Assembly: GCA_947306495.1 (NCBI GenBank)
Contig: CAMZGT010000001.1
Location: 62,001-126,000 of the forward strand
Source of the DNA: an uncultured Acinetobacter sp.
GTDB taxonomy: Bacteria; Cyanobacteriota; Vampirovibrionia; Gastranaerophilales; Gastranaerophilaceae
Length of the DNA stretch: 64,000 nucleotides
Reading direction: 5' to 3'
Shown: positions 20,681 through 36,419 of the stretch, piece by piece
How the letters are laid out: every line of letters starts with the position of its first letter
How positions within the stretch are numbered: the first letter of the stretch is position 1
Translations under genes and position numbers: made by a program
The notes under the pieces: generated by a model
The model's database searches: none
Told to the model about the DNA's origin: nothing
What the model saw: the letters and a program-made list of their open reading frames with translations, nothing else

Positions 20681-22333
<1,653 letters not shown>

Positions 22334-22368: not shown

Positions 22369-22589
22369 CGTGAATTGTGAATTGCGAGCCGTGAGTCAAA
22401 ATATATTTGAAGGTATAGATATTGCAGTTCTTCTCATTTGTGAAGCGATATCAAATTTTTTATCATTTGGAAATTTTCAGTTAAAGAATATACTTTGGTT
22501 ACCAAATTTATTGATTCTTTCCAAACATCTAACTCTTTGTGATTCATATTCTATAACTCCGATTCACGATTTACAAATCACGATTCACG
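22369..22589 (-). mobile_element. Small element remnant with terminal inverted repeats between groES and groEL
   Basis: Ends read CGTGAATTGTGAATTGCGAGCCGTGAGTC and (rc) CGTGAATCGTGATTTGTAAATCGTGAATC; encloses the decayed ORF at 22396-22547. Confidence 0.7.
22396..22547 (-). pseudogene. Four-helix-bundle (23S rRNA IVS/S23-type) protein gene, frameshifted and truncated
   Basis: MNHKELDVWKESINLVTKVYSLTENF then, after a frame change, PNDKKFDIASQMRRTAISIPSNIF*; the family pattern is KELDVWK...LTSQMRRAA.SIPSNIAEG. Confidence 0.8.
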
Positions 22590-22595
22590 TTATAC

Positions 22596-22886
22596 TTATT
22601 CAACTATTGCAAGTGCATCTTTGATGGACAAAATCTTGTATTCTACTCCATCAATCTTAACTTCTGTACCGGCATATTTAGCGTAAAGAATTACATCACC
22701 TACATTTACGCCTAAAGGTTCTTTTTCTCCTTTATCGTTAGTTTTACCTTCACCAACAGCAACTACTTCACCTTTTTGAGGTTTTTCTTTTGCGCTGTCC
22801 GGAATAAAAATCCCTCCTGCTGTTTGTTCGGTATCTTCAATAACTTTGATAACGATTCTGTCTTGTAACGGTTTTAATGCCATAAT
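22596..22886 (-). CDS. groES: Co-chaperonin GroES
   Basis: [45 protein letters not shown]. Confidence 0.97.
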
Positions 22887-34523: not shown

Positions 34524-34991
34524 ATGGAGATAAAAAAAATGAAATTCGAACCGGAATATATTGAAAAATTAGCTAAAATAATTACAGACAATGGCTTAAC
34601 TGAAATTTCAATGGAAGATGGTGAGCAAGCTATTACCATCAGAAAGGATTTACCCGAAGTAATGGTAACTCCTTCTGCCGCATCAGTTACGCCTGCAGCT
34701 GTCGCACCTGCCATTAGTGCAGAAGCTAAAGAAACAAAAACAGAACCGACTCAGAAAGGAAAACCTATAACTTCACCTATGGTCGGCACTTTTTATACTG
34801 CTCCGTCTCCTGATGCTGCACCTTTCGTTGAAATAGGCAGTGAAGTTAAAACAGGTGACGTTGTTTGTATTATTGAAGCAATGAAATTAATGAATGAAAT
34901 TAAATCTGAAGAATCCGGCAGAGTTATAAAAATTTGTGTTAAAAATGGTGACCCTGTCGAATTCGGTCAAGTTTTAATGTATGTAGAATAA
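34524..34991 (+). CDS. accB: Biotin carboxyl carrier protein of acetyl-CoA carboxylase
   Basis: [36 protein letters not shown] biotinyl motif. Confidence 0.97.
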
Positions 34992-34993
34992 TA

Positions 34994-35054
34994 CGTGAAT
35001 CGTGAATTGTGCATCGAAAATATTTGAATCACTAGTCACAATTTACTAATCACG
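34994..35054. mobile_element. 61-bp MITE-like hairpin related to the groES-groEL element
   Basis: CGTGAATCGTGAATTGTGCATCGAAAATATTTGAATCACTAGTCACAATTTACTAATCACG; ends are imperfect inverted repeats and resemble 22369-22397. Confidence 0.6.
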
Positions 35055-35066
35055 ACAAGGATAATT

Positions 35067-36419
35067 ATGTTTAAACGAGTATTAATAGCAAATCGAGGGG
35101 AGATTGCGGTAAGGGTCATTAGAGCCTGCCGTGAACTTGGAATTCCGACGGTAGCAGTATATTCACAAGCAGATGCTGAATCTTTACACGTAAGATTAGC
35201 AACAGATGCTTTTTGTATAGGACCTGCGCCAAGTATAGACAGTTATTTAAATATTCCTGCAATAGTTTCAACAGCTTTAACTACAGGTTGTGATGCAATT
35301 CATCCCGGATACGGTTTTTTGTCTGAAAGAGCCGAATTTGCAGAGATTTGCGATATGCATGGCATAAAATTTATAGGACCTACCGCTGCATCTATGCGCA
35401 AAATGGGCGATAAAGCTACCGCGCGCAGAACAATGATTGAAAATAACGTTCCTGTTACCCCCGGCACAGGGATTCTAAAATCTGTAGAAGAAGCAAAAGA
35501 ATTTGCGCACAAAGTCGGATACCCTATAATCCTTAAAGCTACTGCAGGTGGCGGCGGAAAGGGAATGAGAATCGTTAGAACTAATGATGAATTAGAAACT
35601 AATTTGAATTTGTGTCGTCAGGAAGCTCAAAGCTTCTTCGGAAATGCGGGAGTTTACGCAGAAAAATTTCTGGAAAACCCTCGACATATTGAAGTACAAA
35701 TTTTAGGTGATTCTTTTGGAAATGTTATTCATCTTGGTGAACGCGACTGCTCAATTCAAAGGCGTCACCAAAAACTTCTGGAAGAAGCCCCTTCTCCGGC
35801 AATTGACGAAGAAACGCGTAAAGAAATGGGTGCTGCTGCCGTAAGAGCTGCAAATGCCGTGAAATACGAAGGAGCAGGCACTTGCGAATTTCTGCTTGAC
35901 CACGACGGCAAATGGTATTTTATGGAGATGAATACTCGTATTCAGGTTGAGCATTGCGTTACGGAAATGATTTCTCAAATTGATATAGTTCGTGAACAAA
36001 TTTTGATAGCATCAGGAGAAAAACTCAGTTACACACAAGATGACGTAAAGCTTAGAGGACATGCTATAGAATGTCGAATTAATGCGGAAGATCCTGAAAA
36101 CGACTTCATGCCTTGTCCAGGAAAAATAGATGGTTATTTCACTCCCGGTGGTTTTGGTATTAGAGTTGATTCACATGTATACCCCGGATACTCTATTCCG
36201 CCATATTACGATTCTATGATAGGAAAACTTATTTGTTGGGGCGAAAATCGTAAACAAGCAAGACGCCGAATGTATCAGGCTTTAAAAGAATACGTTGTAA
36301 CCGGAGTTAAGACAACTATTCCTTTCCATCAGGAAATCATAGAAGATGAAGTATTCAAAACAGGCAAGTTTAATACCGGTTTTATTGAAGATTTTTATAA
36401 AAGAAAAGAAGAAAAATAG
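35067..36419 (+). CDS. accC: Acetyl-CoA carboxylase biotin carboxylase subunit
   Basis: FKRVLIANRGEIAVRVIRACRELGI, KATAGGGGKGMRIV, EMNTRIQVEHCVTE. Confidence 0.98.
   Translation: MFKRVLIANRGEIAVRVIRACRELGIPTVAVYSQADAESLHVRLATDAFCIGPAPSIDSYLNIPAIVSTALTTGCDAIHPGYGFLSERAEFAEICDMHGIKFIGPTAASMRKMGDKATARRTMIENNVPVTPGTGILKSVEEAKEFAHKVGYPIILKATAGGGGKGMRIVRTNDELETNLNLCRQEAQSFFGNAGVYAEKFLENPRHIEVQILGDSFGNVIHLGERDCSIQRRHQKLLEEAPSPAIDEETRKEMGAAAVRAANAVKYEGAGTCEFLLDHDGKWYFMEMNTRIQVEHCVTEMISQIDIVREQILIASGEKLSYTQDDVKLRGHAIECRINAEDPENDFMPCPGKIDGYFTPGGFGIRVDSHVYPGYSIPPYYDSMIGKLICWGENRKQARRRMYQALKEYVVTGVKTTIPFHQEIIEDEVFKTGKFNTGFIEDFYKRKEEK

Follow-up and report, generated by a model that had tools for sequence, protein, structure and literature searches.

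A decayed S23-type gene between inverted heptamer arms in a groES-groEL spacer, and the anatomy it shares with S23 genes at other operon junctions

The window studied here, a stretch of 64,000 nucleotides from contig CAMZGT010000001.1, carries in its groES-groEL spacer (positions 22369-22589, minus strand) the remnant of a gene for a 23S-rRNA intervening-sequence protein (IVP, or S23), a member of a four-helix-bundle family described by the profiles PF05635 and TIGR02436. That the remnant is a decayed gene of the intervening-sequence (IVS)/S23 type between two arms is almost certain. It is probably what is left of a compact mobile element that resides at operon junctions and not in rRNA, and the system to which it belongs is very probably one of mobile elements. 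The larger finding is a general anatomy, in which S23 genes lie at operon junctions between heptamer arms that match each other and are specific to the element. Comparison with relatives demonstrates the family, the arms and their matching across differing sequences, bare and filled versions of one site, exchange at that constant site, and recurrence in many phyla.

The remnant and the features of the window that bear on it are as follows.

22596-22880, minus strand: groES, the upstream host gene, from the list of open reading frames (ORFs), in which the frame starts at an earlier TTG, 22913
22561-22589, minus strand: 5' arm of tandem 7-nt units (CGTGAATCGTGATTTGTAAATCGTGAATC), from a repeat search; 22/29 complementary to the 3' arm
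22470-22547, minus strand: N-terminal IVP/S23 piece of 26 residues, PF05635 positions about 1-24, from ORF and profile search
22399-22470, minus strand: second IVP/S23 piece of 24 residues, one frame on, PF05635 positions 24-46, from ORF and profile search
22369-22397, minus strand: 3' arm, inverted relative to the 5' arm, from a repeat search; RNA fold prediction pairs it with the 5' arm
20681-22330, minus strand: groEL, the host gene on the downstream side; its own ribosome-binding site follows the element; from the ORF list
34992-35066, plus strand: hairpin without an ORF, with the repeat unit of the groESL arms, between accB (34524-34991) and accC (35067-36419), both named by profile

The two arms are 29 nt each, 76% (22/29) complementary and separated by 163 nt, and the 5' arm begins 6 nt (GTATAA) past the stop codon of groES, which ends at 22596 on the minus strand. 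From the ATG at 22547 the translation runs MNHKELDVWKESINLVTKVYSLTENF up to a frame break near 22470. It continues in the next frame as PNDKKFDIASQMRRTAISIPSNIF, as far as a stop at 22398 that borders the 3' arm on its inner side. Taken singly the pieces score 21.3 and 26.8 bits on PF05635. Joined by an X they reach 52.5 bits (E 6.5e-14, cut-off 33.8), and 45.9 bits on TIGR02436 (cut-off 24). A preliminary description made from the letters alone had given the inverted repeats, an edge 6 nt past the stop codon of groES, and the protein family, all of which are confirmed by these coordinates and scores. It had also noted a frameshift, which stands. The break is not the only damage, however: the profile is uncovered over positions 47-106, some 60 residues at the C-terminal end, so that the remnant has no complete four-helix domain and an internal deletion must be added to the frame break. 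In the window genome, then, the gene has lost its C-terminal half and its frame, and the arms have remained.

The predicted RNA fold of the remnant has a z-score of -2.4. The heptamer motif, with up to two mismatches, occurs five times in the window against 1.1 expected, a count reached in none of 100 shuffles. At 92% completeness the window genome has no PF05635 match other than the remnant, and a search of that genome for the remnant DNA returned no copy besides itself; the exact arm unit was found at one further genomic place only, the accB/accC junction.

The history of the site is visible in related genomes. We located groES in 55 of 65 congeneric genomes and compared the groES-groEL spacers of those 55. 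Judging by the named locus L073 and by general features of the genomes, the genus probably belongs to the Gastranaerophilales (Cyanobacteriota). The spacer is bare in 25 (14-45 nt, scarcely more than a ribosome-binding site), and 23 hold a whole PF05635 gene of 115-120 aa between arms. One of these 23 (G071) is frame-broken, and a complete four-helix domain is present in 22 congeners. Six spacers have ORF-less inserts of 64-207 nt, and one, that of the window genome, has the remnant. Judged by eye, four of the six ORF-less inserts (G041, G058, G056, G042) are tandem-unit hairpins, and the G041 insert resembles the G014 element minus its middle, the outer ends being alike. The occurrence of bare, whole, remnant and ORF-less states marks the junction as an insertion site. 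An intact congener IVP scores 125.9 bits on PF05635, and the ratio of nonsynonymous to synonymous substitution rates (dN/dS) among the congeneric IVPs has a median of 0.23 over 85 pairs, so that the intact copies are evidently kept as protein-coding genes under purifying selection. The frame-broken IVP of G071 (L033/L262) is intact in its near relative G078. In G067 (L058) the 3' side shows two arm-like arrays about 60 nt apart, as though two 3' arms were stacked.

These spacers bear out the earlier view that the window holds an insertion and not a conserved spacer. A compact element with hairpin-forming ends that later decayed is also in keeping with the whole copies at the same site, whose arms match and are differently sequenced. 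The insertion itself need not have taken place in the window genome, because within the genus the groESL junction is a standing site for such elements, at which one is replaced by another sideways. The preliminary description is thus supported as to the object and, for the most part, as to its history. Its remark that mobility of this kind outside 23S rRNA is poorly explained still holds for the mechanism, the extent and anatomy now being clear.

The arms are short arrays of tandem 7-8-nt units; the unit varies from element to element (GTGAATA, GTGAATC, AAGTGACT, GCGTGAA and AAGTTAAT within the genus), and both arms of one element match. Folding gave 27-42 bp between the 5' and 3' flanks in all 23 congener elements. 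The median duplex energy was -42.6 kcal/mol for matched arms versus -24.2 kcal/mol for mismatched ones, and the matched-arm mean of -44.7 kcal/mol lies below every one of 20,000 permutations (mean -27.2, lowest -35.3). Where a genome has several copies, the median inverted match is 17.75 within an element, 8.0 between copies in the same genome and 7.5 between genomes, which indicates that the identity of the arms is set in cis, element by element. A single genome-wide template for the arms was rejected as a general rule, since copies in the same genome carry different units. In some congeners the groESL arms and the accB/accC hairpin have a common unit (permutation p 0.0003, with species kinship not removed).

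The groESL element has, on the sequences compared, been exchanged between species independently of its flanks. IVP identity is uncorrelated with the identity of either neighbour (Spearman 0.08 with groES, 0.03 with groEL), whereas groES and groEL identities correlate at 0.52. The discordance runs in both directions. Pairs whose flanks are 93-96% identical can have IVPs of 65-75% identity. The pair G007/G067 is 69.6% identical in the IVP yet 93-95% identical in groES, groEL and the unlinked accC, and G065/G071 is 75% identical in the IVP yet 92-96% in the same comparison. Conversely, G011/G072 is 92.9% identical in accC but 99.7% in the IVP, and G007/G059 84.8% in accC but 94.9% in the IVP. In approximately unbiased (AU) tests the IVP tree rejected three host groupings (p 4.1e-5, 7.8e-5 and 4.5e-8) and the accC tree rejected G007+G059 (p 5e-5) but did not reject G065+G070 (p 0.16); the groups were picked after viewing the data, which makes the p-values somewhat flattering. 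Vertical inheritance of the element is rejected by these tests. The sequence from the groES stop to the 5' arm is common to G065 and G071/G078, the elements of which differ, and one breakpoint therefore lies near the 5' arm. In G011/G072 (L007, L065) the 3' arms are fully identical and the 5' arms differ at several positions, so the 5' arm seems to be changing faster than the rest of the element there.

The same anatomy recurs far outside the genus. IVP/S23 genes are present in 130 of the 292 genomes sampled from the window's phylum and in 116 of 300 genomes of the order of Dyella (L132), which we take to be the Xanthomonadales. Scanning bacteria and archaea at one genome per species yielded 80 named loci, 76 of them usable for a flank test, from Bacteroidota, Clostridia, Acidobacteria, Fibrobacter, Planctomycetes, the candidate phyla radiation (CPR), Proteobacteria and other groups; as the loci were selected by similarity to a query, typical IVPs are over-represented, and the species are not independent. 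When the upstream flank was compared with the reverse-complemented downstream flank, the median match score was 16.5 within a locus and 7.5 between loci (n=76). The inverted match lay above the 95% null in 60 of the 76 (3.8 expected) and above the 99% null in 41 (0.8 expected), a level reached by 4 of 138 control ORFs from those loci. Flanks were significantly periodic in 113 of 154 cases versus 43 of 797 control windows, mostly with periods of 7 (61), 8 (22) or 14 (20). The genes on either side were both co-directional at 45 of 67 loci, and the median gaps measured 71 and 54 nt. All loci examined lie between protein genes, and none has the rRNA-gene location of an IVS.

Junctions occupied by IVPs within the genus are groES/groEL, glyQ/permease, 2-oxoacid oxidoreductase alpha/beta, rimP/nusA and a fliP/fliQ-like pair; the gene names were checked by profile, except for the permease and fliP/fliQ, which were read from the sequence by eye. 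At glyQ/permease, G052 (L263) carries a stop-broken IVP of the groESL-type subfamily, and the IVPs found there in G009, G014 and G042 are of another subfamily; this would represent a further swap at a constant site. Manual reading of 29 Xanthomonadales loci placed about eleven at carA/carB and five at accB/accC (carB, accB and accC checked by profile), with arms of the CGGGACT and CGGGATT types. Their inverted flank match exceeded the 95% null in 17 of the 29, using flanks widened beyond 160 nt; flanks of 160 nt gave a weak signal because the reading frames extend past the arms.

The accB/accC junction, used by IVP elements in the Xanthomonadales, is occupied by an ORF-less hairpin in the window and in many congeners. 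It is filled in most congeners, often by a hairpin with a private unit. We read ORF-less hairpins such as this one as gutted or non-autonomous relatives of the IVP elements. No heptamer hairpins beyond those at groESL and accB/accC were found in the 64-kb window, and its other strong hairpins look like terminators. Six congener accB/accC spacers (L192, L194, L211, L201, L184, L191) hold a different, G+C-richer insert of 130-140 nt.

A complete element comprises a four-helix-bundle gene of 115-120 codons between two reverse-complementary arms of tandem 7-8-nt units. It sits past the stop codon of one gene and ahead of the ribosome-binding site of the next, a position that leaves both host proteins intact and should keep the operon working. 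In the transcript the arms would pair over 27-42 bp and place the gene in the loop, and RNase III may then cleave the stem, as it does in 23S IVSs. The window genome has a gene for this enzyme, and on the analogy with rRNA we rate excision of the element by it as about as likely as not. The arms might stay matched through copying inside the hairpin, through selection on the stem, or through both; hairpin-templated copying with slippage would yield matched arms with a unit private to the element. The element itself, and not ordinary recombination alone, would drive the exchange. A wider unification is possible and is put forward tentatively: the S23/IVP genes, together with the heptameric tandem repeats of bacteria that lack an explanation, may form one pan-bacterial system of mobile elements at operon junctions, with arms rebuilt or homogenised within each element by hairpin copying that involves an S23 pentamer, and with the ORF-less heptamer hairpins as non-autonomous offspring.

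Several observations weigh against a mobile element. Comparison of the genomes revealed neither a transposition event nor a target-site duplication nor any dedicated enzyme, the closest bare and filled pairs being so strongly diverged in the spacer that duplications could not be recognised. The stretch from the 3' arm to groEL also changes between swapped pairs, so that the comparison places a breakpoint on the 5' side only. Within the genus the IVP is nearly always at the groESL site and mostly single-copy, a pattern that recombination and persistence bound to the site would fit as well. A clear inverted match is lacking in about a fifth of the 76 scanned loci, and in three Bacteroidota loci (L068, L069, L074) the IVP lies between direct, not inverted, heptamer-like arrays, which the inverted-arm model does not explain. 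A recombinational reading would take up part of this evidence: the element could be passive cargo, its spacer swapped by short-tract homologous recombination and its arms matched by template-switching correction, with no mobility driven by the element. Template switching in inverted repeats is well established, and both the exchange at a constant site and the changes between the 3' arm and groEL would be expected. We nevertheless consider passive cargo unlikely, since it accounts neither for the arrival of gene and arms together, in one design, at many unrelated junctions across numerous phyla nor for the stop-to-arm sequence common to G065 and G071/G078.

The IVP might otherwise belong to the groESL operon as a resident, for instance as a regulator of chaperonin expression whose untranslated regions are structured. 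It would then have passed down vertically and been lost several times, once in the window genome. Its presence at the same junction in 23 congeners, usually as a single copy per genome, and the purifying selection on it would agree with residence; the rejection of host groupings by the IVP tree, its uncoupling from the flanking genes, the 25 species with a bare site, and the other IVPs at unrelated junctions (glyQ/permease, 2-oxoacid oxidoreductase alpha/beta, rimP/nusA, carA/carB, accB/accC) make it quite improbable. Mobilisation in trans, by a Y1/RAYT-type transposase in the manner of repetitive extragenic palindromic (REP) sequences or by a reverse transcriptase with the IVP as an accessory like bAvd, is brought to mind by the hairpin ends, by a weak similarity to the bAvd profile (25.2 bits, cut-off 40) and by the occurrence of RVT_1 in 15 and Y1_Tnp in 36 of the 65 congeners. 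Neither domain is associated with the groESL element across these 65 genomes (RVT_1 in 5 of 23 carriers versus 10 of 42 others, Y1_Tnp in 14 of 23 versus 22 of 42), and reverse transcriptase and Y1 transposase were rejected as drivers on that ground. The window genome has no profile match to RVT_1 or Y1_Tnp (PF01797), and a sequence-specific enzyme would need conservation, whereas the arm units are unconserved. Such mobilisation appears very improbable, and a compact mobile element with its own arms is the reading we prefer.

S23 genes are widespread, yet their role outside rRNA is unexplained. The junction location, with arms that match within and differ between elements, describes a minimal mobile unit whose mobility can be tested, and the groESL and accB/accC junctions supply natural bare, whole and decayed states from which its life cycle can be traced. 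The nearest known system is the 23S rRNA IVS with an S23p ORF of Coxiella burnetii, which has the same protein family and likewise encloses the ORF between complementary ends. That IVS has a 28-bp stem, three tandem heptamers ahead of the ORF, and decaying ORFs, and 23S IVS stems are cut by RNase III (PMC4990558). In CPR bacteria, ORF-containing and ORF-less insertions share rRNA sites (PMC11270868). The groESL-type elements differ from the 23S IVS in lying between protein genes, in having 7-8-nt unit arrays private to each element and in being exchanged between species at a protein-operon site, and their excision is proposed. A structure has been solved for the relative XCC0516 from Xanthomonas campestris (2gsc, E 4e-26), which is cited in PMC4990558 as a pentamer built of four-helix bundles.

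The anatomy of S23 elements also offers an origin for heptamer repeats, for which decades of reports have given no mechanism. Xanthomonas genomes contain 70-75 convergent inverted pairs of GGGAATC arrays each, in a paper that cites earlier cyanobacterial heptanucleotide repeats (PMC4692102), and no mechanism was evident for TAACTGA heptamer arrays (PMC4679880). S23/IVP genes are not mentioned in the descriptions of such arrays that were consulted (PMC4692102, PMC4679880). Our literature search found no paper joining S23 genes to heptamer repeats; subscription literature was mostly uncovered, so priority is uncertain. Like the published repeats, IVP arms are tandem 7-nt units in intergenic DNA, those of the Xanthomonadales being CGGGACT/CGGGATT-like. 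Unlike them, IVP arrays occur as paired arms around S23 genes or as ORF-less hairpins.

Homology of S23 proteins to bAvd of the diversity-generating retroelements has been discussed (PMC10053308). The bAvd family (PF22296) belongs to the same fold class as the IVP, with weak profile similarity: scores were 20.8-31.8 bits, below the cut-off of 40, and most carriers have no reverse transcriptase. With REP/RAYT and miniature inverted-repeat transposable elements (MITEs) the IVP elements have in common small intergenic inverted repeats and ORF-less derivatives; unlike these, they have neither a conserved terminal sequence nor an associated Y1 transposase.
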